A stretch of 64,000 nt of DNA from Duncaniella muris (GTDB lineage: Bacteria; Bacteroidota; Bacteroidia; Bacteroidales; Muribaculaceae). This document shows, in pieces, positions 6,551 to 53,211 of this stretch. Under the pieces are notes generated by a model. That model saw nothing but the letters and a program-made list of their open reading frames with translations. It was not told where the DNA came from and did no database searches. How positions within the stretch are numbered: position 1 is the stretch's first letter; every line of letters starts with the position of its first letter. The translations under genes were made by a program, and so were the position numbers. Where the stretch lies: assembly GCF_003024805.1 (NCBI RefSeq), contig NZ_PUEC01000018.1, positions 1 to 64,000 of the forward strand, read 5' to 3'.

Positions 6551-6572
6551 TGCTTGCTGACATTGGTATATT

Positions 6573-8027: not shown

Positions 8028-8052
8028 TTGAATTCCGGATCGGGGTATATAT

Positions 8053-8230: not shown

Positions 8231-8478
8231 TTGTTGCAAAGTTATAGTATTATTTTGTTAATTCCTAATATTAATTTGCGCTATTGCGTGGCGCCGAGGT
8301 GCGGAATTATCCGGAATCGTGCTTCAAAGTTTGAATTTATAAAGGAGTGCTTGCAGATGTCTGAAATCTGTTTTTGGGAGCGGGGAGAAAGTAATAAAAT
8401 GTAATTCGGTTAAAATGTGTTAAAGTGTAATTTTGGAAATACTGCACAATATATAGGAGGTAATTGTGGATTTTTTTG

Positions 8479-8486
8479 TAACTTTG
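8479..8486 (+). promoter_or_regulatory. -7 box of lon
   Basis: TAACTTTG matches the consensus, 49 nt before the ATG at 8535. It lies inside the longer open frame beginning at GTG 8466, which argues that 8466 is not the start. The -33 region is not clear. Confidence 0.45.
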
Positions 8487-8534
8487 AGGCCTTGTTTTGC
8501 ATTGTGCTTACTGACGTTGCAAAACCGGCTAATC

Positions 8535-10934
8535 ATGGATAAGAGTATGAAAGAAGATACAACAAAGATAGTTTCAGTAGGACAGATAGATATAGGAGTC
8601 CCCTCCGAGCGGCCTAAGCCAAATTTCTCAGATCTCCCGATCATAGCCATGCGGGACCTCGTTCTGTTCCCGGGTGTTACTTTCCCGATTACATTGGGGC
8701 GTGAAGCCTCTGTTCGGACAGCATCGGCTGCTGCTGAACACAGCATTCCGGTTGGAATATTCTGTCAGAAAGTAGCATCAGTTGAAACTCCTGTACTTGA
8801 CGATCTGTATGAATATGGCGTAGTGGCCGATGTCCTGAAGACATTTGATTTGCCTGACGGCACACATACGGCCATAATAGCAGCCCGCGAAAAAATCAAG
8901 ATAGAAGGTCTTTCTGCCGGAAGCCATATCCCCGGTGTTCTGTCTGCCCAGGTCAAACCAGTTCATGACAGTGTGTCGCGGTCATCCGACAAAGAGTTTG
9001 TGGCTATCGTCGATGACATCCGGCAGACCACTCTCAATATACTCCAGAGCGGAAATGAAAAGATGAGCGATCTGGCCTTCAATATAGAAAATATCCCAGG
9101 TCCCCAGTTGCTGATCAATATGATCTGTACCCACTCGCCTTTTACTCCGGAGGTCAAGATCGAATTGCTGAAAAAGAACCGTCTGAAAGATCGCGGACAG
9201 CTTCTTCTCAGCCATCTTGCTCATAGCGAGGAGATGGCCGAGATCCGAGCGGAAGTCCACCGCAAAGCTCGGCGTAACATTGACGAGCAGCAGCGCAACG
9301 CATTCCTCCAGCATCAGTTTGAGGTTTTGCGCGAGGAGCTGTATGGCGATGATGATGACTGTGCCACACTTGAAGCGAAAGCCAAGGATATCGACTTTCC
9401 CCAGCCCGTGCGCCGCACATTCGCAAAAGAACTCGAAAAGCTCAGACGTCTGAACCCCCAGAGCCCCGATTATAGTGTGCAGTATTCCTATCTGCAATTG
9501 CTGACAGATCTTCCTTGGGGAAAATCGACCCCTCTGAACGCTGATTTTGCTTCTGCCGAAAGAGTTCTTGATGAAGACCATTACGGTCTGGAAAAAGTCA
9601 AGGAGAGAATCCTTGAACAGCTTGCGGTGATGATGAACACACCTGAAGGCCGTTCGCCAATCATTTGTCTTGTCGGTGCGCCTGGAGTCGGAAAGACCTC
9701 TTTGGGACAGTCTATAGCCAAAGCGCTTGGACGTAACTATCAGCGAGTTTCACTCGGCGGCCTGCATGACGAAGCGGAGATCCGCGGACACCGTCGCACA
9801 TATATCGGAGCGATGCCAGGCCGTATAATTGATGCTGTCAAGAGAGCCGGTTCGTCAAATCCGGTGCTTCTCCTTGATGAAATAGACAAAACCGGCAGTG
9901 ACTTCAAGGGCGATCCGTCATCGGCTCTGCTTGAAGTGCTTGACCCTGAACAGAACAGTCATTTCCATGACAACTATGTTGATGTGGACTATGATTTGTC
10001 ACATGTGCTCTTTATCGCCACAGCCAATACTCTTTCTACTATTCCCCGCCCATTGCTCGACCGAATGGAGGTTATCGATATCTCAGGTTATCTTCCTGAA
10101 GAAAAGATAGAAATCGCGCGCAAGCATCTGATTCCGCGTATTTCCGAAGAAAATGGATTCGGGAAAGACGAAATCGCGTTTACAACCGATGCTCTTTCGA
10201 AAATTATAGAAAGCTACACCGGAGAAAGCGGTGTGCGCATGCTTGAAAAGGAACTTGCCAAAGTGATCAGAAAGATCGTGCTTAACAAAATGCGCGGTAA
10301 GGACTATAAACTCACCGTTGAAGCCGGTGATCTGGTAGACTACCTCGGAGTAGAGGCTTACACGCCTGAACGTTATGAAGTGTCGGATACCCCAGGTGTT
10401 GCCACCGGACTGGCATGGACTGCGGTAGGAGGTGAGATTCTTTTTATTGAGACATCTGTCACCCAAGGGAAAGGTGAGAAGCTGACCATCACCGGAAATC
10501 TCGGCGATGTGATGAAAGAGTCGGCAGTCATAGCCACTCAGGTGGTAAAGGCGCGATCTGCGGCAAATGGCATTGATCCTGACAGTTTCGAGAACCGCCA
10601 GCTGCACATTCATGTGCCTGAAGGAGCCATTCCGAAGGACGGCCCTTCGGCCGGTATCACCATGTGTGTGTCTATCCTTTCTGCTTTGACCGGGCGCCCT
10701 GTGAAACCACGTCTTGCAATGACCGGCGAGATCACCCTGCGTGGCAAAGTGTTGCCGGTCGGCGGAATCAAAGAAAAGATGCTTGCGGCGAAGCGGGCGG
10801 GAATCACTGACATAATACTCTGTACCGATAACCGGAAAAATATCGAAGACATCAAGCCTATCTATATCGCAGGACTGACATTTCATTATGTCAGGACAAT
10901 TGACGAAGTATTTGCGGTGGCGTTTGGCGACTGA
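8535..10934 (+). CDS. lon: ATP-dependent protease Lon
   Basis: 799 residues from the ATG at 8535. Order: N-terminal substrate-binding LAN domain (from [14 protein letters not shown]), coiled-coil linker, AAA+ domain with Walker [12 protein letters not shown] (about residue 380) and Walker [10 protein letters not shown], then the protease domain with Ser in PKDGPSAG (about 704) and Lys in [14 protein letters not shown] (about 746), the Ser-Lys dyad. It is a cytoplasmic hexameric protease that degrades damaged and regulatory proteins. The upstream frame extension to 8466 carries the promoter -7 box and was rejected as coding. Confidence 0.96.
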
Positions 10935-28826: not shown

Positions 28827-28899
28827 GATTCGCTAGCTCAGCTGGTAGAGCACAACACTTTTAATGTTGGGGTCCTGGGTTCGAGCCCCAGGCGGATCA
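28827..28899 (+). tRNA. tRNA-Lys (anticodon TTT)
   Basis: 73 nt with full cloverleaf: acceptor GATTCGC/GCGGATC (one G-T pair), D-arm AGCTCAGCTGGTAGAGC, anticodon stem CAACA/TGTTG with loop CTTTTAA, T-arm CTGGG-TTCGAGC-CCCAG, discriminator A. The CCA tail is not encoded. It is the junction between chromosome and the conjugative element: everything rightward is element. Confidence 0.95.
28876..28899 (+). other. Probable attachment site of the element (tRNA 3' end)
   Basis: Tyrosine integrases that use tRNA genes normally cross over within the T-arm/acceptor 3' segment and restore it. The integrase gene begins 500 nt further right. The matching copy at the other end of the element would be outside the window, so the core cannot be delimited. 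Confidence 0.45.
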
Positions 28900-28923
28900 C
28901 GAAAGGGTTCGGAAGAACACCGC

Positions 28924-28956
28924 AAAGCACTGAAATCAGTTGATTTTCAGTGCTTT
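28924..28956 (+). terminator. Terminator of tRNA-Lys
   Basis: AAAGCACTGAAA and TTTTCAGTGCTTT form a 12-bp stem followed by a T-run (TTTTTCTTTTT). Confidence 0.8.
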
Positions 28957-29003
28957 TTCTTTTTGGTGAAATTGCAGGATAACGCAGAATATTACCTACA
29001 GGC

Positions 29004-29399: not shown

Positions 29400-30638
29400 A
29401 TGACAAACAACCCTTATTTCACCCTGACCTTCTTCACAAGGAAGCCAAGGTCGGAAGGCTACACCGACCACAAGGTGTATGTCAGAATTTCAGTGGCAGG
29501 TCAGCAGACTGACCTCGCCATAGGCCGCTCGGTCAATCCTGAAAACTGGGACCAGAAACGCAAACTATCAAAAGGTCGCTCCCGGCGCGATCTGGAGCTG
29601 AACAAGTACCTCGATGAGATACGGGCCAGATTCTGCGAGATACATACCAATCTCGTGCGTGAGAAGAAACTCGTCAACCCTATTGTTATGCGCGACCTGT
29701 TTCTCGGCAAAGTTGAGAAGCCTAAGATGCTATGTGAGATTTTCACTGAATCCAACGCAAAGAGAAAAGAGGAAATGGAGCGTGGCGATATGGTCAATGC
29801 CACCTATCTTCGTTGGGAGCGGTGTGTGACCTACCTCGGCGAGTTCCTGCGTCTGACTATGAATGTCGATGATATTCCAGTCAGGGATGTCACGGCAGGA
29901 ATGATAGATGATTTCGAGCATTTCCTGCGTGTCAGCAAGAACTGCGCCAACAACACGGCTGTGAAGTACCTCCGCTATCTCAAGAACACTATCCAGTATG
30001 CCATCGCGCATAAGTGGATAACTGAAGACCCGTTCATCGGCAGAAAGTTCCACCGTACTCAGGCGAAACGCCAATTTCTGACTGAGGCTGAGATTATGGA
30101 GATTCTCAAACTCGACTTCTCCATGATGCCGCGTCTGGAACTTGTCAGGGATACATTCGTGTTCTGCTGCTTCACCGGACTTGCATTCTGCGATATAAAA
30201 TCGCTTCAATGGAGCGACATCGAAAAAGACCGCGACGGCAATATGTGGATACGCAAATCCCGCGAGAAAACCGGCGAGTTGAGTATCATACCGATGTTGG
30301 AGGTGCCGCGTCAGATAGCCGACAAATATGTCAACCACCCCGTTGCAGTATCTACCGGAGTCGTGCTGCCCGTTTGCTCCAATCAGAAAATGAACGCTTA
30401 TCTCAAAGAGATTGCGGATCTCGCAAAGATAACCAAGCCTCTTACCACACACATCGCGCGACACACTTTCGCGTCTCTGTCGCTCAACAACCATGTCCCT
30501 CTCGAATCAATCCAGAAGATGCTCGGACACAGCGACATCAAAACAACGCAGATCTACGCGAAGATTCAAGACCAGACCGTCTATGAGGATATGCAGACCA
30601 TGCGCAACCGATTTGACAGACTGAGCATCAACAGATGA
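29400..30638 (+). CDS. int: Tyrosine integrase of the conjugative element
   Basis: 412 residues: an N-terminal arm-binding domain (about 1-100), a SAM-like core-binding domain (about 105-205), and a catalytic domain. HIARHTFASLSL carries the conserved H/R pair and LGHSDIKTTQIYAKI the His and nucleophile Tyr. At the position of the first catalytic Arg the sequence is CFTGLAFCDI, without Arg, as in IntDOT and many Bacteroidetes integrases. It integrates and, with accessory HTH proteins, excises the element at the tRNA-Lys site. Followed by a bidirectional terminator. Confidence 0.93.
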   Translation: MTNNPYFTLTFFTRKPRSEGYTDHKVYVRISVAGQQTDLAIGRSVNPENWDQKRKLSKGRSRRDLELNKYLDEIRARFCEIHTNLVREKKLVNPIVMRDLFLGKVEKPKMLCEIFTESNAKRKEEMERGDMVNATYLRWERCVTYLGEFLRLTMNVDDIPVRDVTAGMIDDFEHFLRVSKNCANNTAVKYLRYLKNTIQYAIAHKWITEDPFIGRKFHRTQAKRQFLTEAEIMEILKLDFSMMPRLELVRDTFVFCCFTGLAFCDIKSLQWSDIEKDRDGNMWIRKSREKTGELSIIPMLEVPRQIADKYVNHPVAVSTGVVLPVCSNQKMNAYLKEIADLAKITKPLTTHIARHTFASLSLNNHVPLESIQKMLGHSDIKTTQIYAKIQDQTVYEDMQTMRNRFDRLSINR

Positions 30639-37856: not shown

Positions 37857-40800
37857 CTACAATTTGGGACCGGCAGCTCGGAAACCTCCGGGGGGAGTTA
37901 CGCCACAACCACCGATAATGATGCGGGAACTTAACGGTTCCCGTTCTTTGTATGTGGTGGTTGGCTCCGCGACCATTGACTTTTTATTGTCTGTGTCCGG
38001 TGTCGGAGCATCAATTGTCTGGACAGTGTGAGGAGAATCCTCTCGCTTTACCTCCTCGCCGTCCTCCTTGTTCTCATGCTTAGGTGCTAATTCAGCGGCG
38101 ATTTTGCGGTCGAGAGCAGCAAGTTCGGATTTGAGCTGTTTTAACTCATCCTCTTTGCCCCACGTCTTAGCCATAATGCCTTCAATTATGGGAACATCGG
38201 CTTTGAGTTTGGCGGTGCGTTCCTCATACTGGGCGATTATGCCGGGGATTTTCTCCAAAGCATTGACAAAGTTCATACAGGCGGCGTGGGTGTCAGCCAT
38301 TGCCAACTGACCGTTGTTATACTTGTATTTGTAGTTGCCCTCGACAACAAAGCGGTTCTGCACTTTCTCAACACCGTCAGCCAATACTCTTTCAGAGATA
38401 ATGCTGATTGGGAAGCCATAGACCTCGCCCACACGCTGATATTGTCCGTGAGTGTCAGTTCGTTGAGCCAAACCTTGCAGGTGGATACCCATATTCTTCT
38501 CATCGGATAGGTTACAGGTGTCAATGGTGAGATTGTTGATGGGGTTGCCATCCTTGTCACGCTGCACCACTTTGTCGTACCGCTCCCAGTCTGCCTTCAT
38601 CCGCTCTATTGCCGCCTCGTTGTTGGCAATGTCATGGGTTATGGTCTGGAGCCGGAACTCGGAATCGCCACGTCCCTTGTTGAACGACTTTCGTTCACTC
38701 TCCAACGCCGCTATCCGTTTTTCAAGTTTTGCCTTATCGAGCAGGTCGGTGTTGCCGGATAAGATAGCCATGTACTCAGAGAAATTCATGCCATTCTTCT
38801 CGTCCATAGAACCCTCGTCGATTGTTCGCGCTCCCAATGCACCACTTTTAAGTTGGTTTATGAACGTAGCCTTGCAATGAAGAAGATTGAACTTGTAGGA
38901 GTCCAAAGACTTCTCAACCGCGTAGATAATCACATCCACCTTATTATCAGCATACAGTTTGGCAATCTCGTTGCCGGCACGGATAGCGCGACCCTCGCGT
39001 TGTTCGAGGTCGCTCGGACGCCACGGGCATTCCAATTCATGGACAGCGACAGCTCTCCTTTGGGCGTTTACGCCAGTTCCCAACATGGAGGTTGAGCCGA
39101 AAAGCACCCGCACATCGCCGTCATTCATAGCCTGAATGACAGCCTTTCGTGACCGCTCAGTCTTGCACTCTTGGATAAACCTTATCTCATGCGGAGGAAT
39201 ACCATAATCCTCAACCAATTTTCGCTTGATTTCAGAATAGATATTCCATTCACCCGGCTTGTAAGTTCCTAAATCGCTGAATACAAACTGTGTGCCTTTC
39301 TGAGCGTCATACTTATGGTAGTATTGGGCAATCATCTTGGCACAGTGGCTCGCCTTATTGTTCGGGTCATCAGAATAATTGGGGTCAATCATTCTCATGT
39401 CAAGAGCCATCTTCCTTGCATAATCTGTGGCGATGAGCATCTTCGCCTTCTCCTCAGTGTCAGACAATGGCGCACGACCCAATATTGTGGCATCACCGCT
39501 TTTGGCAAACTCCATTAGTTTCTGGATAAACTCCTCCTGTTGAGGCGTGGGTGGGATATTGTGAAGAATCTCGTTCTTATCCGGTCGGTCAACACCAACA
39601 TCCTGTGCGGTTCTATAATCCGTTATCTCATTATAAAAAGCCGCCAACTCCGGAACCTTGATGAAGTAGCGGAAACGCTCCTTAGCGACAATGCTGTTGG
39701 TGACATTGAACTCATAGTCGGTTGTCTTCTTGGCGAAGATTGCCGCCCACGCGTCGAAACACCTTATCTCCTGCCTTTCAAGCTCTTTCGGTCGGAGATA
39801 CTTGAACAAGAGATACAACTCCGTCAGTGAGTTGGAGATTGTAGTGCCGCTGAGGAATGTCGCGCCCAAATCGCGCCCGGTCCTCTCTTGGATGGTACGG
39901 ATGGCATAGAGAAGATTCAGTGAGCGTTGGCTTCCTTCGGAGTTGCCAAGTCCAGCCACACGGTCATGTCTGGTATTGAACATCAGATTCTTGAAACACT
40001 GGCTCTCGTCAACGAAAATATGGTCGATGCCCATCTGTTTGAAGTCAACCACACTGTCCTTGGACTGTTCCATCTGATACTGTATGGTGGTTATCTTGGC
40101 GGTGAGGTTCTCCTTACGCTTCAACAGCCCCTTCAGCATACCACGCGAAATGTCGTGTCCCTGCTGCTTGATGACTTCAAGATTCTCCTCAACCGTATCA
40201 AGTTCGGCTTGCAGGATCTGCTGCTGCATCTCCGGCGACTGCGGTATCTTGCCGAACTGGTCGTGCGACATTATGATACAGTCATAGTCGTTATTCTTGA
40301 TCTGGTTGAAGAAGTTCACGCGGTTTGCCGCCGTGAAACTCTTGGCATCGGCATAGAGGATACGGGCATTGGGATAGGCAGTCTGATAAGTCATGGCAAT
40401 TTCCGCGACATTGGCTTTCATTCCGATAATCATCGGTTTATTCACCAATCCGAGACGTTTCATCTCATGCGCCGCCATACACATTATAAGTGTCTTTCCC
40501 GTACCAACCTGATGGTCGCATATTCCTCCACCGTTCTGAATCAGCATCCATACGCAATCCTTCTGTGACTGATATACGGAATTGATATGGTAGCGGTCGC
40601 CCAACAGTTTCATGTTGAGGTCGGGAAACTTCTGATGTGAGCCGTCATAATGAGGTCTGACGTAGCAGTTGAACTTGCTGTTATACAAATCAACAAGTCT
40701 ATCCTTGAACTCCGGCGATTGAGCCTCCAGCCAGTCCGAGAATCCATTACGGATTTCATCAATCTTGGTGTTGGCTAACTGAATCGCCTCCGAGTCCGGC

Positions 40801-43800
40801 ACCTTGATGTCGTGACCGTTATCATCCTTGCCGATGGACTTCTTGATGTCCGGCACTGTGTTGTGCAGGGCGTGTTTGAGAAGGCTCATGCCGTCATATA
40901 CACGATAATAACCTCTGACACAGAACTCTTCCCAAATCTTCATATTCTTGCGACGGACATCACAGGAATATTCGTCCATTGATGAAGAATAGGCTATATT
41001 AACTTCAGTGCCATATAGGTGACTCATATATGCTGAGTATATTCCGGTCGGGATCCACCTCTCTCCGAAATTGAAGTCCAGTTCATCGAAAGTAATCTTT
41101 CGGGGAATAGCTTCCTCCAATGCTTTCAATGACTCTTTCGACAAGTCGATGAACGGCTCAACGCCGTCAAAGCCGGGAAAATTCTTGGTGCGTTCTTCCT
41201 CGCGGTTGACCCATGCCTTGATGTCCTCTGCTTTCTGCACTACATTACCGGCGATGAAGCGGTCGGTAATCTCAAAGTTTGACACGAGCGGATTATAATA
41301 TATGTGTCCGGCAAGGCTGTCAATCATCGCATCCTGCTCCATATCGACAATACTTCCCATATATTCGAGGTTGACTTCTCCAAATTTATTGAGTGAAGCT
41401 GTCAATGCTTCCATCGGGGTATCAACTGATGTAACCTCGTCAACGGCGAATGATACCGGATGGTCAAAGATGTCGGCTTTGACAAAGCAACCATTCTCGC
41501 CACGCTCCAGAGCCAACGAATCACGCCCGTTGGCATCCATGAGGATGAACTTGACATTCTGTTTCTCATTGAGGTTGCCGTATCTGTCCACGAACTCATC
41601 GTAATACTGATTGAGGTGTTCGCGCATATCGGCATCTTCTTCATGCGTCTCAGCCTCAAAATGGTATAGTTGCTGATAAGTTTCCGACAGGGTGATATAG
41701 AGCATGGCTCGTTTCTCCTGTTCCGGTTTGAGCGTGAGCGGCGAGAATGTTGCTCCATTCTTGCGAACCTCCGAGAGAAACCCTACCTGACCCTTGTCCA
41801 CGACCATGCTGCCATTGTGGTGGAAGAACTGAATATCCTCCGAGAAAGGACGGGGCGACATATCACGATCCGCAGCCTTGGGTGCTTCCGCAGCCACTCT
41901 TGGCTTCGGAACAAAATCACCTTTTGAAACTTCGATGATAGTGCCGTCTTCGGTGATTGTCTCTTTCTTGGCCGCTTCCATTGCCTGACGTTCAGCCTCC
42001 ATTTCCGCGAGTTGACGATGGGCAATCGACATCATTGTTTCGTAGAATCCATTGATGGGCGGATTGGTTTCCCAATCAAGAGAACCGTAAAATTCCAGCT
42101 CCTTTTCAGAGAGCGGACGGAATTTCTTCGCCTGAGTATCGGTTACTGTTATGGTAGGCTTTGGCTTTTCTTCCGGTTGCTGAGGTTGTTTTGGTTGTCG
42201 CTGAGGTTTGCCGATAGGCTCCAGTTCTCCGAAAAGATTATAGGCGAACAAACGAGGGTCAGGGTTATCGTTATAATCCGGGCCATCAGATGTTTCTATC
42301 TCCTTATTGGTTTGAGGTGGTGGCGGAGTTGTAGCCTCCGGTGTTTGAGGCACTGGCTCATCCTCCATTGGAGCCGGAGAAGGTGATGCCGGTTCCGGTT
42401 TTGGAGGCTCTGGCTTTGGCTTATCCTCCGGCTTAGGATTATTGCGTTTCACCGTCTTCTTCTGCTTTGGGTCTTCCAACTGCTCACAGATAGCCACTCT
42501 GTTTCCGGCTCTTACCAATTTGGGCAGATAGACATCCAGTGCATGATGTGGGAATCCTGCAAGTTCAATACTACTCTTGTCGCCGTTCATTCGGCGGGTA
42601 AGGGTGATCCCCAAGACCCCCGACGCTTTGACCGCATCCACGCCCATACACTCGTAGAAGTCCCCAACACGGAAAAGAAGAATCGCATCGGGATGTTTCT
42701 TCTTCATCTCCCGATATTGCTGCATCAACGGGGTATCCGCTATGCGCTTCGGCTTTTCGACCTTGTTTTCGGTGGAACGCTTAACAGGCTCAGGTGTTGG
42801 CGGTTCAGGTGTCGGAGGTGTGAGACTCCTATCATTATAGAAGTCCAGATTGAGGCGCAGTTTCAGTGACTCATCAAGAGCCTTTCGCATATCGGCTGCA
42901 ATACCATCGACACCCTCCTCATGCTTGTAGATGATAGCCGGTTTGCCGAACTGGTCAGTGCCAACCTTTGCTTCCGTGCAGATAATATTTTGCGGAAAGG
43001 CAGCAAAATATTTGTTATTCGGAGCCTTGGTTTCACGGTCAACAATGGATTGGATGAAAAATTCCTCATCAGCTGACAACGCTTTCTTGTTGGTGTGCTT
43101 CTGGAGAATAATCAGGTCAGACCCGGCATCTGTTCCGGCATTGTCGGAAAATGTATTGTTCGGCAGACGGAAAGCGCCCACCAAATCCGCACGGCGCATC
43201 ATCTCCATTCTGACAAATGGACTGGCAGCATTCATCACCCCTTGCGAGGCGATGAATGCCACTATACCACCTTCATGCACGGAGTCAAGGGACTTCAGAA
43301 AGAAGTAATTGTGTATAGTCTTTGTTGACTGACGGTAGGCAATCTCCCTGCTCGTGGCATATCGAGGGTCTGCAACCGCAAAATCTCCGAAAGGAATATT
43401 GGACGCAGCCACATCGAAATACCCCTCAAAATCAGGGTCAATCTTCTCAAAACCCTTTATTTCGGTGGAGATGGACGGATGCAACGCAGATAGAATTTTA
43501 CCTGTCAGCAAATCCTTCTCAAATGCCAACGTCTCGGCACCGGGATAATTCTCATTTTTCAGAAATGAGTCAATGAAAGCGCCTTGCCCGGCGGACGGTT
43601 CAAGAAAACTCTTTACTACAACACCGTTAGCCTTTAACGAGCTGGCGATGGCATCAATTACAGGTGCCGGAGTATAGAATGCAGTCAGCACAGACGCTTT
43701 CAGCGAGTCCATGTAGGCGGCAAACTCCTTGTCATTCTTGGAATAGTCATGGATAAGGCGGCGAAGTTCAACGGTTGGCGCAAACAATTCAATGTCAGAT

Positions 43801-43991
43801 TTGCTCCATTTGGCTGCATCGGCAAGTTCATTTGCATCGTTGAGTATGCACTTCAACCCACCGAATCCGGCATATCTGCCCAGCGCCTCACGTTCATCTG
43901 CGGTAGGCGGTCGCTTCTCAACACCGAGGCGAAACGCGACGCGAATCGCCTCAATGTTGTCGCGCATAGTCTGTAAACGATTATAAGCCAT
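37857..43991 (-). CDS. Giant methyltransferase / MutS-I / SNF2-like helicase fusion
   Basis: 2,044 residues from ATG 43991 ([17 protein letters not shown]); the frame is open 10 codons further, overlapping DUF1896. Domains in order (numbered from the open frame): N6-adenine methyltransferase-like with [11 protein letters not shown] (about 139) and SNIPFGD (about 207); a MutS domain-I module at about 428-528 ([28 protein letters not shown]); Pro-rich linkers; a middle region of about 500 residues I do not recognise; a SNF2-type helicase with Walker A HQVGTGKT (about 1172), FVDESQ and [10 protein letters not shown] (about 1677); a C-terminal coiled coil. Similar large fusions occur in Bacteroides ICEs and resemble phage DarB-like antirestriction proteins, so protecting transferred DNA is a reasonable inference. 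Confidence 0.85.
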
Positions 43992-44439
43992 ACTCCTCAA
44001 AGAATAAGGTAATACGGCCAATAACCGTCAGTCGGAATACTTCTCCTTCGGTAGTGTTGAAGAACTCTTCGCCAAGAGTAGTTCCTTTGAACTCCTCTTT
44101 CAATTCTTCAATAAATGTGTAAGTCCAGAACTCAATGGATTCATCTTCAAGTGAGATGTTGTCTTGAAACTCATCAAGCAACAGACCGCTGATGAAATCG
44201 TAAGGTGACATTTCAAATCCGGCATAAAGTGCCGCCATTGCTTTTTCATTGGAAATATACCACTCGTCACCGGCAAGGCGGGATTCAACGAAAACATCGT
44301 ATGCGTGTTCCGTGCGTGTGGCAATAAACAGATCATCCTCTGCTTCCGGAAATCTATGCTCTGAAAGGTATCGGCGGAGAAAAAGGTTGTAGTAGTCAAG
44401 GTCATACCCCCGGCTGTCAAAATGGTTATTTGCCATCAA
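43981..44439 (-). CDS. DUF1896 protein
   Basis: 152 residues, acidic. Matches the DUF1896 pattern of Bacteroides conjugative elements: [42 protein letters not shown], then [16 protein letters not shown]. Its end overlaps the helicase start by 11 nt, so the two are coupled. Function unknown. Two consecutive ATGs (44439, 44436) make the start ambiguous by one codon. Confidence 0.85.
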
Positions 44440-44458: not shown

Positions 44459-45768
44459 TCAACCCTTCTGTTGGAGAAGGTGTCGCAATTTCGGGTCTGC
44501 GGCTATGCGGGCAATCTCATTGTCAACTATATCCCGCACGTCCTGCTTGATTTGGTCGTAGTTCGCCTGAATGTCGGCTTTCATCTTGTGCTTATCCTCC
44601 GAGGCATCTTTGAAATCGGTAAGGATTGGAATCGGCACATATTTTTTCATTTCGGCATCGACTTTTTTACTGTCCACGACAATCTCTGCGTGAAAAATCT
44701 TCTGGTCAATGCGTTGGTCGATGTTGTCGGAAACCGCTCCGACGAATATTCCTTGTGTCAATGTGGAAATCTTGCTCGGTGGAATAAGCGAGTCCATCTG
44801 AGTGTTGAATGAGTGGCTTACATCCTGACGGTTGATTGATATTGACTGCCGCTTCTGCAACACCTTACCAAAGCGTTCAGACAAAGTTTTGGCGGTCGAA
44901 CCTACCACCTGCCCGGAGAAGATATTGCCAACGGTATTCATAACGACCGCCGCCTCCGGCTTTCCATAGTCACGTTCCAACTGTGAGAAATCCTGAAAAC
45001 CGAGACACACGGCAACCTTATTGCTTCGGGCCGTGGCAATTAGGTTATCCAAGCCCTTAAAGTATATCGTGGGAAGCTCATCTATTATGACACCGGACTT
45101 CAACATCCCTTTCTTATTGATTAGTTTCACGATTCTCGAATTGTAAAGTCCGAGGGCCGCGCCATAGATATTCTGACGGTCAGGATTGTTGCCAACGCAT
45201 AGAATCTTCGGCTCTTTTGGGTTGTTGATGTCAAGAGTGAAGTCATTGCCGGTCATTACCCAATAGAGCTGTGGCGAAATCATACGCGAGAGGGGTATTT
45301 TTGCTGAGGCAATCTGACCTGCAAGCTGCTCCGCCGCCCCTCCAAGCCAAGCATCCATGAATGGCGATAGGTAATTTTCCAAGTCCGGATAACTGGTGAG
45401 TATCGGAAAAATATCCTCATACCTGCGGCAAAGAAACTCGATGGCATGGGGAAATGTGCAATACCGTCCACCCTTATAGATTCGCAGAAACCAGATGATA
45501 GCCGCAAACAATACAATCGGAGATTCAACAAAGAAGTCACCCTGCTTTTGCACCCACGACTTATTAAGGTTGAGCATTATGGTATATGCGCTCTCATAGG
45601 CATCGGCAATATCCGACATGAAATCAGGGTGAATGGGGTTACAACGGTGGCTGCGCTCCGGATCATCGAAATTTATCATATAGAATTTCGGTTCCACATC
45701 TACGTATTTGTCAAGGTGGTTCAACAGATGGTTAAATGCAATGGTACTGAGGTCGGGACTCTTGAAAT
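44459..45768 (-). CDS. mobC: mobC exon 2: VirD4-type coupling protein, C-terminal part
   Basis: This is the 3' exon of the coupling-protein gene, joined to exon 1 (48257-48947) after intron removal. Joining gives codons ...TAT-GAT-TTC-AAG (Y-D-F-K), the G coming from exon 1, and a 666-residue protein. Exon 2 holds the Walker B strand KSGVIIDELPTIYF, the RecA-like segment GLDNLIATARSNKVAVCLGFQD, and a charged tail. The protein is the hexameric inner-membrane ATPase that docks the relaxosome to the secretion channel. The frame appears open up to 45952, but that extra sequence is intron domains V and VI. DUF1896 follows 20 nt downstream. Confidence 0.92.
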
Positions 45769-48256
45769 GTAGGCTAAGCACCCAGCGCCGTGCCATGCAA
45801 TCATGACCGGTTTCCAAATACTCGCCTCCGAACCGGACGTACACCTTCCAGCGTATCCGGCTCTCCGTTTTGATATTCAGTCTATGCCTTGCCATTGTGA
45901 ACTTTCTTATGACAACTACTGCACAGTGCAATCGTTTTTCTTCTACGTGCAATCATCATTCTTTCCCAAGGCTCTTTTCCTTTGAGTCCTTTGAGTTTTC
46001 TTACATGATGCATTTCGAGTCTGTCGGTTGCCCCGCATAATTCACACTTTTGTGCTTTAAGCCTGTCCATCAGGCTTGTGGTGCTTGTGTGCATTATGAA
46101 GTTCGGCAGAGTTGAAATTCTACTGTCCTTTGATGGCTTTAGCCTTTTGAAGCCACCATTATAGAATTTAGCTTCGATAGTATTTCCTTTCTTGCCTTGG
46201 TAGCTCACGGTGAAAATGCCGTCTTTCTTGTATTTGCGACATATCTTTGTAACCTTGCTACGATATTTTGCGGCAAAAGTCTTATACATGCTGTATTCCA
46301 TAATGTATCCGAAATTGTTCATCTGCTTGGCGCAGTTGACACCAATTCCGAAATAGTTGTAGAAACCCCTTATTTCAGAATTGTATCTTTGAAGAATTTC
46401 AAGGTCATCGTTAAAGTTGAGTTCGGGTCTTGCTTTCGGCTTCCAGATTTCTTTACCGTTGTGTTTCTTTATTTCCACAACGTCATAATCGAGAAGCTTT
46501 TTCTTGACCGTATCTTTAGGGATACGAATCTCAACCGTTTTATTCCGAGACCTTTTCTTTCTACCGAGTGTGTCTCTGCGTGTTTCCGCACATTTTCTGT
46601 TTCGGATTTCAAAGCCGAGAAACTTCGCAGGATTATTTGAGTAGGTGACAAGGGTCTTCTCTTCGGATAATTCCAATCTTAATTTGGATTCAAGGTATTC
46701 TTTTATGTCCGCTTTAATCTTGATTGCATCCTCACGAGAGCCTATCACGCCACATAGGAAATCATCTGCGTATCTAACGTATTTCAATCGTTTGTAATTG
46801 GTGTCTCCCTCGTTTTTCGCAGGAGTCACCATCATGAGACTGTCATACATCTTGACGAGGCGAAGAGCCTCGTTTCGTTCCTCTGCGGTCTTGGCTTTCT
46901 TAAGAGCTACTTTTGCACGTCCTTTCTTACGTTGGTAGTGTCTGTATAGTTTGCTCACCTCCTTGCGTACACCTTTGTCGAATTTTGAGGCATACTCCTC
47001 CATATATTTGTCAAGCTGGTCAAGATATATGTTAGCAAGTATCGGGCTTATGATTCCACCCTGCGGTGTTCCGTCATAAGATTTGAAGTATTGCCAATCC
47101 TCAATGTAACCTGCGTTGAGAAATTTACGGATTAATCGGATGAAACGGCAGTCGCCAATGCGTTTTTCAAGGATTTTAATCATGACATCGTGATTAATGT
47201 TGTCAAAAAATCCTTTAATATCGCCCTCGATATACCATTTGGCTCCACAGAAAGACTTTGAAATCTGTTCCATTGCGGTATGGCAACTTCTTTGAGGTCT
47301 GAAGCCGTGGGAACAATCAGAAAACTGTCCCTCGTAGATTGCCTCAAGAATCATCCTCACCACTTCCTGCAACAGTTTGTCCTCTATAGATGGTATACCG
47401 AGTGGACGCATTTTACCGTTTTTCTTGGGAATATATTCCCTCCTTGACGGTTTTGGCTGATAGCTTTCATCTTTCAATGACTCTATCAGTCTGTCAATGC
47501 GCTCGATGCTCATTCCGTCAATGGTTTTGCCGTCAGTGCCTGCCGTCATATTACCCTGCTTAGGGGCAATACGTTGGTACGCGACAGCATACATATCCTT
47601 GTTGTAAAGAATACGATACAGACGCTCGTACTTGTAATCCAAGTCCTTGCAATGTTTGTATAGACTGTTTAATACGTTTGTTGAATTTCTCATAAAGTCT
47701 CACACTTCATTCATTAATTGTATTAAAAATCTCCACTGTCTCCCTTCGCCATGTACGAGGCTTTCCCTCGCTCGGACTACTGCGGAGACTCCGTTACCAT
47801 GCTGTCAGCGGATGCTGACAGTTTAGGCAATCCCAGTTTATAGTGCCTTAACTATTGGCTTGACAAGTTGTCGGGTATGACTTCCACCTGTTCCTGTATA
47901 TTACAGTTGCGCTGCACCAAGTTCCTGCTCTCCCTACGCTACGACTGCAAAGAGAGTGATGCAGTATGACGATTAGAAACTTCTTGTGGTTGTTTCCATA
48001 GTTACCTTACGTCATAGCCTACTACACGGACCGCTTAGATTATCATTCAACCAATTCGGGCTTTACCCTCATACTTGTCTTATCATCGCTATTCAGTCGC
48101 AGTTTGGTAACTAACTGACTTATAGTTGTACCGACGTGCTACACTCCCTGCCGTCTTTCGTTGGACAGATAAGTCGGTGATGATAGGTCATTTTCAAAGA
48201 ACACTTGCCTAATCCTTGCCAAAGGGACGATTAAGACACTACCTTGACTGGCGCAC
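45769..48256 (-). mobile_element. Group II intron 1, inserted in mobC
   Basis: 2,488 nt. The 5' end is GTGCGCCAGTC at 48256, the group II GTGYG consensus. A 34-nt domain V lies at 45863-45830, beginning GAGCCGGATACGC and ending GTCCGGTTC. Domain VI follows, and the 3' end is AGCCTAC at 45769. The reverse-transcriptase ORF (45882-47693) sits in domain IV, with 563 nt of structured RNA (domains I-III) upstream. Excision restores mobC in frame exactly. It is inserted just after the Walker A helix, in the same orientation as its host gene. Boundaries were read from the sequence; base pairing with the exons was not resolved. Confidence 0.9.
45882..47693 (-). CDS. ltrA: Group II intron reverse transcriptase/maturase 1
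   Basis: 603 residues. RT blocks: PKKNGKMRPLGIP (about 89-101), HGFRPQRSCHTA (about 129-140), IEGDIKGFFDNI, TPQGGIISPILANIYLDQ, active site YADD at 308-311. Then the maturase X domain, and a C-terminal HNH endonuclease (CELCGATDRLEMHHVRKL ... CSSCHKKVH) with its Cys pairs and histidines intact. The protein assists splicing, and with the lariat RNA performs target-primed retrohoming. Ends 19 nt before domain V. Confidence 0.95.
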   Translation of the reverse strand: MRNSTNVLNSLYKHCKDLDYKYERLYRILYNKDMYAVAYQRIAPKQGNMTAGTDGKTIDGMSIERIDRLIESLKDESYQPKPSRREYIPKKNGKMRPLGIPSIEDKLLQEVVRMILEAIYEGQFSDCSHGFRPQRSCHTAMEQISKSFCGAKWYIEGDIKGFFDNINHDVMIKILEKRIGDCRFIRLIRKFLNAGYIEDWQYFKSYDGTPQGGIISPILANIYLDQLDKYMEEYASKFDKGVRKEVSKLYRHYQRKKGRAKVALKKAKTAEERNEALRLVKMYDSLMMVTPAKNEGDTNYKRLKYVRYADDFLCGVIGSREDAIKIKADIKEYLESKLRLELSEEKTLVTYSNNPAKFLGFEIRNRKCAETRRDTLGRKKRSRNKTVEIRIPKDTVKKKLLDYDVVEIKKHNGKEIWKPKARPELNFNDDLEILQRYNSEIRGFYNYFGIGVNCAKQMNNFGYIMEYSMYKTFAAKYRSKVTKICRKYKKDGIFTVSYQGKKGNTIEAKFYNGGFKRLKPSKDSRISTLPNFIMHTSTTSLMDRLKAQKCELCGATDRLEMHHVRKLKGLKGKEPWERMMIARRRKTIALCSSCHKKVHNGKA

Positions 48257-48947
48257 CATAGACATAAAGCGAGTACCCTTTCTCGATCATCTGTTTGATG
48301 AAGTTGTTGACAACAGCGTATGACTTACCGGAACCGGGAGTGCCGAGAACGATTGTCGCTCTGAATGGATTGACAATGTTTATCCACCCCTCGTTCCACC
48401 GTTTTTTGTAGTAGAATTTTGTGGGAAGGTTGATGGAATAGTCATTCGTAAGCAGGCGTGTTTCCTGCTGGAATGATTCATTCTCATCGTTGAAACGGTC
48501 GTCCATCATGTTATTTTTGAGCATACGACTCATCCATATTCCTCCCAAAAGGAGGCAAACATAGCCGGCAACTGTGGTCACGATGTAAGTAATTTGCCAA
48601 CCTAAACTCATCATCCACCAGTTGAAAAGGAACAGGACACCGCCAATGCCAATGATTATCCAAATTTGCTTCCACTTGATTTTCTCATTCTTGACACCTT
48701 TTGTTCCGAAACAAGAGAGAGCCAACAATAGAAGGGCCCACCATTTGGCATTCCATAGGTTGTTGTATAGACCTCCGGCTTCATTAAGTCCATTAAGGAT
48801 TTTCATTGTCTGGGCATGGAATACCCAATCGCCGATAAGGTTATGGCAGTACCAGTAGATTTGTGTGACCACAACGAGGATGCTAAGACCACGGATTAAA
48901 TCCATAATTTTAGCTAATGCCCGCAGGTCGTCCTCTTGCTGAGACAT
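48257..48947 (-). CDS. mobC: mobC exon 1: coupling protein, N-terminal part
   Basis: 691 nt from ATG 48947 (a TTG at 48959 extends the frame by four codons) to the G at 48257 that begins the split Asp codon. It encodes an N-terminal membrane domain with several helices and the motif YWYCH (the YWFCY motif of Bacteroides MobC), then the Walker A GTPGSGKS at residues 202-209. Exon 1 ends 21 residues after Walker A, so the unspliced product would be an inactive stub of about 240 residues ending GAPVKVVS. It starts 15 nt after the mobB stop. Confidence 0.93.
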
Positions 48948-48962
48948 TTTTATATACAATAT

Positions 48963-50191
48963 TTAGAATTTCGGTCGTTGACCGCGCTTCTTCTTCCGCT
49001 TCATGCGGCGTTTGAAATCCTCCTCATCAGCGTCAACTGTCGGACTGAGCTGAAACAGATCCAGACCGGGGAGAGAGTAATCATAGTCGTTACCGCTATC
49101 CTGATGCTGTTGAGTAGGAGCCGTGTTGGTTGATGTCTGCTGCTCCTGTGATTGATTTGTGTCATTATCCGGATTTGTCGATTCAACAATATCAGGAGTC
49201 CGGCTGACCTCATTATCTCCGGAGAATCGTTCATTAAGAGCATTGGCGGCATATTCCCTGCCAAGGCGAGAGCCATTCAGTACGGGATGTGTATCATGGT
49301 CTATGAATGTTGCGCCATAGATTCGTCCATCTTCAGTGTATCTCAATACAAGGTCGATGTTACGCTCTTTCAGTGCAGCAATAAATTCTTCCTTACTGTG
49401 AGATTCATTCAGTGCCTGAGCAACTCGCCTTCTTGTCTTTGCCACTGTCTCAGGAGTTATCTTCTGCTCGGAACGGTTGATTTTCTCGTGGACAGCATTA
49501 AGGCTGGTGAACTTGCCGAGGCGTGAAGCCTTGAACGGGTTACCAATCTTTCTGCCGTTTTCATCCAGTACAGAATAAACGATGCCATGATACTCCCTGC
49601 CATTGACTCTGCCATTGGTTTCCTCGGAGGTCAAGCCATAGAGCGACAACACAGCGTTGTATTCTCCCATTGTCCGGAATGAGTAACGGCTCATTATGAG
49701 CTTGACATTATTGGCAACCTGTCGTTTGACATCACCTGCATTGTAGTCAACTCTCCTTAATGGAGTGTCCGGATCCAGACGCTGACGCTCTGCCTTATGG
49801 AGATTGTATTTCTCCTCAATTTCGGTAGTTGCCTTCTTGCTTCGCCGATGGATGAAATCCATATTGAGCCTTTTCCCCTGTTCATTGACATTGACCGTCA
49901 CTATATGGATATGGTGTCGTTCAATGTCGGTGTGCTTATAGATTATGTAGGGCTGCTCACCAAAGCCGAGTTTGTCGAGATACTCGCTGGCAATGTTGGC
50001 GAGGTCGGAATCCGACAGCACATCATCTGGATGTGGATTAAGGGAGATATGGAGAACCGGCTTCTTGGTGCGTCCGGTCTTCGGCATGTAGTTTTTGAAA
50101 TCCTCCACCATTTCCGGAATGCCGATTTTTCCGTCAGGTGGCACATAAATCTTGTTAGTAGAGAGTACACGACCCTCCTCTTTGTTGATTT
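48963..50191 (-). CDS. mobB: mobB exon 2: relaxase, main part
   Basis: 1,229 nt, joined to the 61-nt exon 1 (52747-52807) to give a 429-residue relaxase that reads ...SYNGE-K-INKEEGRVLST.... The exon holds the metal-binding histidine motif YKHTDIERHHIHIVTV (HxDx4HxH type) and a long C-terminal region ending RRMKRKKKRGQRPKF. The relaxase nicks oriT and stays covalently attached to the transferred strand. The frame seems open to 50222, but bases 50192-50222 are intron. Next gene is mobC, 15 nt away. Confidence 0.92.
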
Positions 50192-52746
50192 GTAGGCTCG
50201 ACACCGGGGCGCCTTGCCGCATTTCTGCGGTAGGTTTCCCCGAGTCTGCCCCCGAACCGGACTTACACCTTTCAGCGTATCCGGCTCTCCATTGGTATAT
50301 ACTCTAACGCTCACTTTCTTTGATTTTGGCATAACACTCCGCACATACGGCTACCGTTTTACGGTGCCGATACAGCATCTGTCGCCCCCAAGGGGTATCG
50401 CCATTAACTGTCTTTAATGTGCGAACATGGTGCATAATGAGAGGTCCCTTGGTCCCACAGACTTCACATATGCAAGACCTTAGCCTATCCGCAAGGGTGG
50501 CTTTTGGAAGATACATTGTGCATGGGAGACGGTCACAGAAATCGAATTCTGACGGTTTTCGTCTTTTGAAACCTCCGTTGTATAGTGTACGAGTTCGGTC
50601 TTTCCCTTTCTCGTCTTTATAAGACACTGTGAACACCTTGTCTTTTTTATATTTGGCAAGGATGCCCTGCACAGTACTGTTAAGTTTCTGAGCAAGTGTC
50701 TTGTAAAGGCTATACGACATTATGTAGCCAAAACCTGCGCAGGCTTCGGAGGAGTTGTTGGCAAAACCGTAATAGTTGTAGAAACCTCTGATTTCAAGGT
50801 CATATTGAGCGACCATTTCATGTGGTTTCATTCCTATCATCGGGGTTCTTGCTTTCGGTTTCCAAACTTCTTTGCCTTTTTCTTGGGTAAATTTTACCGC
50901 TCCGAGTTCAATCAGTTTCTTTCTGACAGTTTCGGACGATAGATTTACTTTGACTACACCTACAAACATACGTTGGATGACACCTCGCTTGTTTCTTTTT
51001 GTATCATCCAATGTTTGGACGGTGATGTCAAAGCCAAGAAATTTTGCGTTCTCTGACGCATGGGTTATCAAGGTCTTTTCAGCGGATAGTTCAAGGAGCA
51101 GTTTTTCACTCATATATTGTGTGATGTCTGCCTTTATACTTTCGCTGTCGGCTTTCGACCCGATGACCCCAATCAAGAAGTCATCCGCATATCTGACATA
51201 TTGAAGTCTGCGATAGTTCGCATCCATCTGTAGCCCTGCGGGTACTGAAAGACATTTTGCCTGCAATTCCTTAATCCGTTCAAACAAGCAGGCTTTCACC
51301 GTCTCATCTGTTTCGGATTTCCATTTCTTGCGCACTTTCGCGAGTTTCTTGTTAAGACTGTCGTATTCGGGATTTACCTTACGTTTATTCCCTTTCTTGA
51401 AATTTTCAGCGTATTCTGCCATGTATTTATCGAATTGGTCGAGGTAAATATTGGCGAGAATAGGGCTCACAATACCACCTTGCGGTGCTCCCGAATAGGT
51501 GTTGTGATAGTGCCAAATCTCAAGATAACCTGCACGGAGAAATTTCCATATCAGACGGATAAACCGCTCGTCGGCAATACGCTTACGGAGTATGTCCACA
51601 AGTACAGAGTGGTCAATGTTGTCGAAGAAGCCTTTTATGTCCCCTTCGATAAACCACCTGCTACCCGTGAACCGTTTCTGAAGACTGTTCAGTGCGGTGT
51701 GGCAGCTTCGGGATGGTCTGAAGCCATGTGAGGTATCCTCAAAGTATCCCTCATAGATAGCTTCCAAAATCATCCTTGCCACCTCTTGCACCAGTTTATC
51801 TTCGATTGTAGGTATGCCGAGAGGTCGGAGTTTTCCGTTTTTCTTAGGAATATAGACCCTCTTTGCAGGGTTAGGAATGTAACTCTCATCTTTTAGCGAA
51901 GAGATAAGAGCGTTGATTCTCTCCAGCGACATTCCATCTATGGTCTTTCCGTCCGAGCCGGGTGTCATGTTGCCAGGCTTGGATTTTATGCGCTCATACG
52001 CTACCATAAACAGTTCTTCGTTGAAGAACAATCGGTAAAGCCGCTCATACTTGTAGTCAGCATCGCTACTGTGTGAGCATAGAGTGTTCAATATTATCTC
52101 TGGATTTCTCATACGTCTCTCACGTTATCCGTTGATTACATTGAAGATACCAACTGCGTCCCTTTGCCATGTACAGGGCGTTACCCTGCTCGGACTACTA
52201 TGGACGCTCCGTTGCCATGTCGGATATTCAGAACCGAAGTCCATAGCCTTGCGGCATTCCGATTTAGGCAATCTCCGTTTAGCACGCATAACAACTATTG
52301 GCACGACTGACTGTCGGATGCGACTTTCACCTTTTTCTCCGCTTATTGCGGTCTCGCCGTGGTAAGTTCCAGCCGTGTCAACGCGAGAAGATAGACACGG
52401 TGCCACGGGATGGCGTAAATAGCTACCTTCCGCCACCGTCACAACTGATACCGATAGATTATCGTTCAACCATTCAGGCTTCATCCTTATGTCAGTCTTT
52501 TTCCCTTGCAGCTCAGTCGCAACATGGTAGTTAGTTGACTTGCCGCTTCTCCGAAGTGCTATGTTCCCCCTAAGGATTTCTCCGCAGGGTAAGTCGGATG
52601 GGAATAGATAATATAACATAGTTAAACTTTGTTATTTGGTTGTTAACAACTGTTTGTTGGGGTGATTTTACCCCAATATGTTATTTGGAACACTTATCTA
52701 ACCTCTTGCCAAAGAGGTATTTGTTATGCGACCATTACGGACGCAC
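50192..52746 (-). mobile_element. Group II intron 2, inserted in mobB
   Basis: 2,555 nt. The 5' end is GTGCGTCCG at 52746; 34-nt domain V at 50287-50254 (GAGCCGGATACGC ... GTCCGGTTC), nearly the same as in intron 1; 3' end AGCCTAC at 50192. The ORF (50304-52112) is in domain IV after 634 nt of RNA. Splicing joins GGA-GAG-A to AA-ATC and restores the relaxase. It is the same lineage as intron 1: same ends, nearly identical domain V, colinear ORF with YADD at the same residue, but clearly diverged in sequence. The exon junction differs (GGAGAGA versus TCTATG), so the two recognise different target sites. Confidence 0.9.
50304..52112 (-). CDS. ltrA: Group II intron reverse transcriptase/maturase 2
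   Basis: 602 residues, colinear with maturase 1 and by eye about two-thirds identical in the RT region: PKKNGKLRPLGIP, HGFRPSRSCHTA, IEGDIKGFFDNID, APQGGIVSPILANIYLDQ, YADD at 308-311. The X domain follows. The C-terminal HNH region keeps CEVCG and MHHVRTL, but its last part is CAECYAKIKESER, lacking the CxxCH..H of maturase 1, so DNA cleavage may be impaired. Splicing and RT activity should not be affected. Confidence 0.95.
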   Translation of the reverse strand: MRNPEIILNTLCSHSSDADYKYERLYRLFFNEELFMVAYERIKSKPGNMTPGSDGKTIDGMSLERINALISSLKDESYIPNPAKRVYIPKKNGKLRPLGIPTIEDKLVQEVARMILEAIYEGYFEDTSHGFRPSRSCHTALNSLQKRFTGSRWFIEGDIKGFFDNIDHSVLVDILRKRIADERFIRLIWKFLRAGYLEIWHYHNTYSGAPQGGIVSPILANIYLDQFDKYMAEYAENFKKGNKRKVNPEYDSLNKKLAKVRKKWKSETDETVKACLFERIKELQAKCLSVPAGLQMDANYRRLQYVRYADDFLIGVIGSKADSESIKADITQYMSEKLLLELSAEKTLITHASENAKFLGFDITVQTLDDTKRNKRGVIQRMFVGVVKVNLSSETVRKKLIELGAVKFTQEKGKEVWKPKARTPMIGMKPHEMVAQYDLEIRGFYNYYGFANNSSEACAGFGYIMSYSLYKTLAQKLNSTVQGILAKYKKDKVFTVSYKDEKGKDRTRTLYNGGFKRRKPSEFDFCDRLPCTMYLPKATLADRLRSCICEVCGTKGPLIMHHVRTLKTVNGDTPWGRQMLYRHRKTVAVCAECYAKIKESER

Positions 52747-52807
52747 TCTCTCCGTTGTATGAGAGTGCGCCGTACAGACTGCTGCCTACTGAGATTTTTG
52801 CGACCAT
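52747..52807 (-). CDS. mobB: mobB exon 1: first 20 codons of the relaxase
   Basis: 61 nt reading MVAKISVGSSLYGALSYNGE plus one base. This is the conserved N-terminus of Bacteroides relaxases, containing the Tyr residues of motif I (SSLYGALSYN). It begins at ATG 52807 and is too short to appear as an ORF. It overlaps the end of mobA by 22 nt in another frame, so translation is coupled. Immediately after the last base the intron begins with GTGCG. Without splicing the relaxase would lose this motif. Confidence 0.9.
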
Positions 52808-53211
52808 TGGTTGCGCATATCCTCAGTAAGTGCAAGGACTTTGGCGGTGACAGCCGCCAGTTCCTTCGTTTCTTTTTCAAGACGGTAGAGCAATGTCATT
52901 GCCTTTTTCTCGGAGAATCCTGCTTTGAGTTCCCTCACCACAATGTTGTAGTTGACGCCGATATTGCGGTATTCGGCAAACAGGGCTGAAAGTTTGGTGA
53001 GATAATCGAGCATTGTCTTGTCAATTTTATGCACCTTGAAAGTCTTTCCAAAGACCAGTCCCTTGATGAAAGTAGCCTTGACGCTTTCCCCGGCAAGCTC
53101 CATCATGCGGATAAGTTTGTCATATTCGAGGTCATCAAAACGGACTTTAACGCAGTTGCAGCACTTGTTGGCGACCGGAGGTCGGCCACCTTTATTGAAA
53201 TTTTCTGCCAT
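52786..53211 (-). CDS. mobA: Relaxosome accessory protein MobA
   Basis: 141 residues. Starts MAENFNKGGRPPVANKC, the GGRP opening and CVKVRFDDLEYDKLIRMMELAG ribbon-helix-helix-like segment of Bacteroides MobA/MobC-type accessory proteins, followed by YRNIGVNYN and a coiled coil. It binds oriT and helps the relaxase open it. First gene of mobA-mobB-mobC, downstream of the hairpin cluster. It overlaps mobB exon 1 by 22 nt. Confidence 0.88.
   Translation of the reverse strand: MAENFNKGGRPPVANKCCNCVKVRFDDLEYDKLIRMMELAGESVKATFIKGLVFGKTFKVHKIDKTMLDYLTKLSALFAEYRNIGVNYNIVVRELKAGFSEKKAMTLLYRLEKETKELAAVTAKVLALTEDMRNQWSQKSQ

Follow-up and report, generated by a model that had tools for sequence, protein, structure and literature searches.

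Introduction

Why should two consecutive conjugation genes of one mobile element each carry a group II intron, and does the pair control the transfer of that element? The question is raised by a 64,000-nucleotide stretch of the Duncaniella muris genome (contig NZ_PUEC01000018.1, positions 1 to 64,000; hereafter the window), where mobA, mobB and mobC follow one another on the minus strand as the mobilisation module of an integrative and conjugative element (ICE). Both mobB, which encodes the relaxase, and mobC, which encodes the coupling protein, are interrupted by an intron with its own intron-encoded protein (IEP). An initial annotation of the window suggested a gating of conjugation by double splicing, and named chance and the retargeting of a duplicated intron as alternatives. 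Our analysis makes it highly probable that the two introns are independently homing and probably still mobile LtrA-type (group IIA) parasites of conjugation genes, which arrived separately and do not form a purpose-built double switch.

Results

The mobB intron (2555 nucleotides; 50192..52746, minus strand, as are all mob features given here) separates an exon 1 of 61 nucleotides, that is 20 codons plus one nucleotide (52747..52807), from the 1229-nucleotide exon 2 of the relaxase (48963..50191). The mobC intron (2488 nucleotides; 45769..48256) lies between an exon 1 of 691 nucleotides (48257..48947), which bears the P-loop GTPGSGKS, and the 1310-nucleotide exon 2 of the coupling protein (44459..45768). 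Both have group II ends (GUGYG...AY) and a domain V. When each is removed in silico at the exact bases GTGCG...CCTAC, the frame is restored, yielding ...SYNGEKINKEEGRV... for MobB, where the junction reads ...YNGEKINKEEG..., and ...LYVYDFKSPDLS... for MobC. The spliced exons match the NCBIfam models of MobB (NF041325; exon 2 covers profile positions 21-418 with 500.6 bits) and MobC (NF041326; exon 1 covers positions 2-234 and exon 2 positions 235-655, the latter with 745.9 bits), with the break in MobC at model positions 234/235. The short mobB exon 1 shows a 77.8% match to the unbroken MobB start of locus L085. At the 3' ends, the Rfam group II model RF00029 (gathering threshold 40 bits) matches 50192..50289 in the mobB intron with 55.3 bits and 45769..45865 in the mobC intron with 55.5 bits; both matches stop exactly at the intron ends, and the two domain V stems fold alike, each at -18.2 kcal/mol.

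Each IEP combines reverse transcriptase, maturase and HNH domains (PF00078, PF01348, PF21368) and is colinear with LtrA, the protein of Ll.LtrB (5g2x), over residues 7-597 for the mobB IEP (50304..52112, 602 residues, E 1.3e-135) and 7-598 for the mobC IEP (45882..47693, 603 residues, E 2e-151). The two proteins are identical at 318 of 598 residues (53%) with one gap and have YADD at the same residue, while the whole introns share 1572 of 2397 aligned bases (65.6%). The initial annotation was right to see two related introns here, with the same ends, nearly identical domain V and colinear maturases, and both introns are complete. We assign both to the predicted LtrA/Ll.LtrB-type group IIA introns, the backbone forks of a 34-row maturase tree being open as to a clade with Ll.LtrB to the exclusion of others.

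The interruptions fall between functional motifs: in mobB, the conserved N-terminal stretch is encoded by exon 1 and the histidine motif by exon 2, and in mobC the P-loop lies in exon 1 and the DELP motif in exon 2. Judging by these sequences, unspliced mobB or mobC RNA should give no working protein. We infer that both introns are spliced, since their removal restores the frame and a natural empty mobC site exists at the exact predicted boundary. This empty site is found in G092, which belongs to the same bacterial family and is assembled as one contig of 3.3 Mb, and whose ICE has mob exons about 91-95% like those of the window (96.1% over the stretch including the intron) and bears the mobB intron without the mobC intron. 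Bases 9021/9022 there align to window positions 48257/45768, the predicted exon ends.

Comparison with relatives points to movement of the introns apart from their genes. The mobB introns of the window and G092 are identical at 2554 of 2555 bases, against 465/500 and 914/1000 in the flanks, counted in windows without gaps that end where register is first lost (121 differences in 1500 bases, about 8%; Fisher p ~2e-52). For the mobC intron the disparity is wider: the copy in Muribaculaceae bacterium IMSAGC_006 (G147, locus L104), a member of the same bacterial family as the window genome, is identical at 2487 of 2488 bases, with flanks of 378/570 (66%) and 407/597 (68%; Fisher p ~2e-209), and the copy in Bacteroides muris differs from that of the window at 12 bases, with flanks of 65.5% and 68.5%. 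The bases nearest the mobC intron are no more alike (19/30 and 16/30), as expected of RNA-based retrohoming rather than of flank exchange. Intron identity lies far above flank identity, so each intron has moved apart from its host gene; both probably retain retrohoming activity. An artefact of a single assembly is unlikely: independent genomes also carry the mobC intron, and G092, assembled as one contig, also carries that of mobB. The screen of relatives for presence or absence, which the initial annotation had proposed, revealed the empty mobC site and introns that recur singly.

Do the two introns travel as a pair? Among 297 genomes of the family, 43 MobB copies exceed the model cut-off; 41 of these begin at model position 1 or 2 and the remaining two (window and G092) at position 21, the intron site. 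All 33 MobC copies over the cut-off run through 234/235; split copies score below it, and a split at 234/235 was seen in the window and IMSAGC_006 only. The mobC intron is present without the mobB intron in IMSAGC_006, in Bacteroides muris and in two other elements: the mobB start is unbroken in four of the five other elements with an intron at the same mobC site, labelled MobC231 (L104, L105, L107 and L119), and cut off in the fifth (L106). Both introns together were found in the window only, among the 297 family genomes and the five other MobC231 loci, of which L106 could not be judged. A search of 393 genomes of the order (E up to 1e-130) added four introns, none at the mobB site after codon 20 or at MobC231. 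The two introns assort INDEPENDENTLY: in relatives each occurs without the other, and the pair is known once. The initial annotation had noted that recombination between the introns would delete mobB exon 2 and the mobC start. The geometry for this is right, and we judge the deletion a minor risk: the longest exact stretch common to both introns is 18 nucleotides, so that homologous deletion should be rare.

Multi-intron transfer regions exist elsewhere. In another family genome, G081, contig 80 has introns in TraG and TraN, and on contig C385 (43487-53658; L091, L190, L195) one transfer operon is interrupted three times in some 10 kb, by introns belonging to two classes, in TraE, TraG and TraI. 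The window genome itself bears a third intron of the family on another contig, in TraE (DUF4134; L101, contig 26, 6041-8574).

On a maturase tree of 89 rows (a quick LG+G4 tree), site labels follow lineages: 24 site labels require 23 changes, the minimum possible, and shuffled labels need 67.1, a contrast inflated by near-copies. This count leaves out two unknown labels and the six off-site labels of Parabacteroides gordonii described below, and it uses labels corrected from the flanks: L122 was moved from unknown to MobA (tblastn 3.6e-6, break 87/88) and L178 from unknown to MobB115, an assignment that is weak alone (E 2.6 at the junction, MobB resuming downstream in another frame). L184, which has no IEP in the tree, was relabelled TraG797 (484-796, then 797-828). 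Taken singly, 12 of the 14 listed labels with at least two rows need one change. The mobB maturase joins an intron at MobB106 (support 97; 100/99 in the 34-row tree; 66% identity) and then introns in TraE and TraN. The mobC maturase joins the five other MobC231 introns (support 100; 71-100% identity), and this group next joins TraG and TraJ sites less firmly (81; 93/90), with 64% identity to the TraG640 protein. Each window intron belongs to a target-specific lineage of its own. The maturase trees reject the idea that the two are each other's closest relatives.

The closest relatives of the two introns sit mostly in conjugation genes. We assembled 97 distinct relatives: the two of the window, 12 found in family genomes and on plasmids, and a further 83 obtained by wider searches after removal of one duplicate (L186, a duplicate of L179 that was kept in the trees). 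The named loci number 80; they were the top 80 of 420 when ranked by likeness to queries that themselves came from conjugation genes, and so describe the closest relatives. In this sample, conjugation or ICE-core genes host 87 of 97 introns, distributed over 22 sites. Their hosts are TraG (33), a SNF2/methylase protein (14), MobC (8), a DUF3852 protein of clostridial elements (8), TraI (7), MobB (6), TraJ (5), TraE (2), TraF (2), MobA (1) and TraN (1). Classification used sense-strand matches only; the SNF2 and DUF3852 proteins were counted as conjugation or ICE-core genes by their position in such elements. The labels TraE, DUF3852, M23, CHAP and those of P. gordonii come from flanking frames that were read, with a hidden Markov model check of one or two members for TraE, DUF3852 and M23 (for DUF3852 in one of eight, the others being read by eye). 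The ten others are one in an M23 peptidase gene of a transfer region on a plasmid (L008), one in a gene that reads as CHAP-like (L149), six off-site copies in P. gordonii and two unplaced introns (L121, L145). Three partial loci (L010, L099, L100) stand outside the 97; in L099 and L100 TraE-site sequence precedes GTGCG.

In P. gordonii, eight listed copies with identical IEPs (L136, L137, L139-L144) occupy one genome; two of them are at the TraG site and the other six lie elsewhere. They represent a site-specific lineage with ectopic spread. M23 peptidase genes on plasmids have introns inside them (L008, Alistipes) or just before them (L198 and L201; Metabacillus and Paenibacillus).

We also looked at eight more distant LtrA-like plasmid introns, hand-picked among 60 listed of 585 records and placed by annotation and reading, which gives no count. 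One splits a lactococcal relaxase and one a Sulfobacillus coupling protein. In Klebsiella the intron precedes a TraM-recognition (coupling-type) protein, in Priestia it comes after type IV secretion genes, and in Subdoligranulum after frames that read as coupling- and VirB6-like. The intron of Enterococcus faecium sits between PcfB and Maff2, presumably the place of a coupling protein, which is unannotated there. The remaining two of the eight are the Metabacillus and Paenibacillus introns named above, each located ahead of an M23 peptidase gene.

The guide sequences co-vary with the target. In an alignment of 71 introns with exact ends (L183 and L175 left out), a single place stands out as exon-binding site 1 (EBS1), with 80% pairing to exon positions -1 to -6 against a mean of 40% over all places (standard deviation 5.8), and EBS2 is likewise a single place. 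With one intron taken for each of 21 sites, EBS1 pairs with its own intron-binding site 1 (IBS1) at 100 of 126 bases (shuffled mean 58.3, maximum 77) and EBS2 with its own IBS2 at 106 of 147 (shuffled mean 67.3, maximum 86), and in neither case was any of 10000 shuffles as high. These places were picked as the best of the alignment and kept fixed in the shuffles, so that selection accounts for part of the level of pairing but not for the match at each individual site. The base adjoining EBS1 forms a pair with the first base of the 3' exon at 15 of the 21 sites, both window introns included (7 of 10000 shuffles as high). This delta-delta' pair is the IIA form.

In the mobB intron, the predicted EBS2 (52440..52446) pairs with IBS2 at 52753-52759 in 6/7 positions with one wobble and EBS1 (52383..52388) with IBS1 at 52747-52752 in 5/6. 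In the mobC intron, the predicted EBS2 (48020..48026) pairs with 48263-48269 in 5/7 positions including three wobbles, and EBS1 (47938..47943) with 48257-48262 in 5/6 with one wobble. The mobB guide makes 11 of 13 pairs at its own site and 7 at the mobC site; the mobC guide makes 10 of 13 at its own and 8 at the mobB site. The initial statement that the targets are unrelated is borne out, the EBS1 and EBS2 of the two introns differing and pairing better with their own sites. The separate idea that introns pick the most conserved stretches of MobC found no support in 19 MobC copies.

A second class of introns has the same habit. In two family genomes MobC is broken near residues 238 and 306 by introns whose IEPs have RVT_N and GIIM domains (L087, 7226-8929; L088, 6520-8172), the one near 238 lying close to the 231 site of the window. 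A search of the 297 family genomes with one maturase of this class (E up to 1e-60) returned eight introns in seven genomes, with two pairs of near-copies (L188-L195), and all eight lie in MobC, TraI, TraE or SNF2 genes. They resemble the window introns in occupying these genes in the same bacterial family and differ in their IEP domains (PF13655 and PF08388, tested on two) and in hitting MobC near 238 and 306 rather than at 231, their ends not being delimited. That a second class shares this habit suggests that conjugation genes are a shared refuge and not the quirk of one intron family. TraI is hit within a few codons by the two unrelated classes (L190 and L191 versus L007, L125 and L127-L129). 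A different guest, an insert of about 8 kb (L089, contig C348 of G081, ~1900-10400), breaks MobC near residue 172, and its frames read like two tyrosine recombinases and a relaxase.

As for the remainder of the element, mobA (52786..53211, minus strand; PF19514, E 3.3e-41) encodes a MobC_2-like relaxosome accessory protein and overlaps the start of mobB. The start of the ICE appears to adjoin a tRNA-Lys gene (28827-28900), beside which lies a tyrosine recombinase that is probably the ICE integrase (29400..30638, plus strand; TIGR02225, E 5.2e-23, below the cut-off of that model). No repeat of at least 14 nucleotides of the tRNA-Lys region (28827-28960) that could mark a second attachment site was found on the 76.5-kb contig. 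The giant SNF2/helicase protein of the ICE (37857-44021) contains a MutS domain I (PF01624, E 3.6e-32, residues 430-526).

Discussion

The following course of events would account for the two introns. When mobB and mobC are transcribed, each intron would be removed with the aid of its own maturase, so that both proteins can be made. When conjugative elements come to share a cell, the excised ribonucleoprotein (RNP) could then reverse-splice into copies of its target gene that lack the intron, EBS1 and EBS2 of the mobB intron recognising the last 13 bases of mobB exon 1 and those of the mobC intron the last 13 bases of the P-loop exon of MobC. Conjugation would bring together alleles of one conserved gene with and without the intron, and an intron that splices well would cost its carrier little while copying itself into the empty allele. 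We propose that these introns live in conjugation genes because conjugation delivers fresh empty alleles, and each lineage of this guild would keep largely to a single site in a single conjugation or ICE-core gene.

Several observations weigh against such site-bound, still mobile parasites. In the HNH domain, the histidine that follows the last CxxC is missing from the mobB IEP and from five other proteins (L003, L007, L045, L048, L054), making six of 12 aligned IEPs; the mobC IEP and five others keep it. On the tree alone TraG797 and SNF2_1674 are not single branches but need two changes each; TraJ163 and DUF3852 branch from within them, the pattern that a later change of address would leave. 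The share of 87 in 97 is not an unbiased rate, since the named loci are the best 80 of 420, and the guild is not strictly confined: six P. gordonii copies lie off the TraG site, one of them inside a gene that reads as transporter-like. The delta pair fails in six of 21 labels (TraE, SNF2_1674, CHAP, TraG797, MobB115 and TraJ163). In six of 21 labels, MobC231 included, another site pairs as well as the own site or better, and the mobC guide makes just 7-8 of 13 pairs with the sites of L104, L105 and L107. Finally, three tested MobC sites lie in unremarkably conserved stretches (percentiles 0.26, 0.41 and 0.54).

Relaxase and coupling protein are both obligatory for conjugation, and this lends some appeal to the view that the ICE keeps both introns as a selected control, a regulated double gate in which transfer needs two splicing events. 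A precedent for an effect on transfer exists in Lactococcus, where, in the available excerpts of the source, the intron lowers relaxase mRNA and Ll.LtrB cuts pRS01 transfer 3- to 4-fold (PMC6003770). Yet the pair has been seen once, among single-intron and intron-free relatives, 41 of 43 MobB copies over the cut-off are intron-free at the mobB site, and the introns change hosts independently of the genes. Two of 43 mobB sites and two of roughly 39 mobC sites hold an intron; chance would then put both in the same element about 0.1 times, and one such case is seen, numbers too small to exclude an association. We consider such a gate, which the initial annotation had raised, very improbable. The effect on transfer would most likely be a passive attenuation, as measured for Ll.LtrB, and two introns are expected to cut transfer further than one in the same passive manner.

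The same class, the same ends and 53% identical proteins would fit one intron duplicated inside the ICE, with the copy retargeted to the neighbouring gene. Against this, the nearest relatives differ (MobB106 for the mobB IEP, MobC231 for the mobC IEP), each maturase groups with introns of other sites, and the two fall in different supported groups, distant clades within one LtrA-type family, the very placement that the initial annotation had named as grounds for refutation; recent duplication with retargeting is the least probable of the readings that we weighed. That both introns are dead remains disrupting a defunct ICE is distinctly unlikely: the mobB IEP lacks its last HNH histidine, but both IEP frames are open over 600 residues, domain V is intact, near-identical copies occur in other genomes and the flanking frames rejoin exactly. 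It is unlikely, if slightly less so, that the intron RNPs act between ICEs by pairing with the mobB and mobC mRNA and DNA of rivals, reopening transfer mRNAs or invading alleles. If this were true, a carrier ICE would dampen transfer by rivals that lack the introns, and its own genes would stay spliced with the help of its maturases.

Two separately arrived, homing introns thus remain our preferred explanation. Group II introns are familiar residents of conjugative DNA, through a few well-studied examples. The wider pattern is one LtrA-type family with 22 addresses in transfer genes and core genes of elements from Bacteroidota and Clostridia, in which lineage and guide follow the address. With it, the reason why group II introns of bacteria reside in mobile elements becomes a question that can be approached by comparison. 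The collection offers many natural EBS/IBS pairs, alleles of one ICE gene that occur with and without the intron, and transfer operons with several introns as material for measuring what these cost conjugation.

Comparison with known systems

As far as the available excerpts of the sources go, introns in relaxase genes (Ll.LtrB, Ef.PcfG) and an intron pair in one transfer region (pAW63) were already known. For the wider pattern, we found no description or survey of group II introns across Bacteroidota conjugation genes in the open-licence literature searched, which is not proof of absence.

In plasmid pAW63, a single transfer region contains the introns B.th.I1 and B.th.I2, and one of the two interrupts a VirD4 homologue (PMC1196294, available excerpts). 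The window resembles it in having an intron pair in one transfer region with one member in the coupling protein; it differs in that, according to the same excerpts, the VirD4 intron of pAW63 lacks an open reading frame, the other host gene is Tn916 ORF14-like rather than a relaxase, and the host phylum is different.

A close parallel is that of Ll.LtrB and Ef.PcfG, group IIA introns that interrupt relaxases of conjugative elements in lactococci and enterococci. Proof of splicing and mobility exists for that system only, and the IEP identity to a lactococcal plasmid copy is 44.2%. The window family is also found in the coupling protein and many other transfer genes, unlike Ll.LtrB/Ef.PcfG. The likeness nevertheless extends to an IEP homologous over its whole length, to EBS1/EBS2 and delta-type target pairing, and to the use of a relaxase gene as host. 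Near-identical introns in diverged genes are described for Ll.LtrB and Ef.PcfG (99.7% versus 61%; PMC5072309, available excerpts), and the contrast between the window mobC intron and its flanks, 99.96% versus about 66%, resembles theirs.

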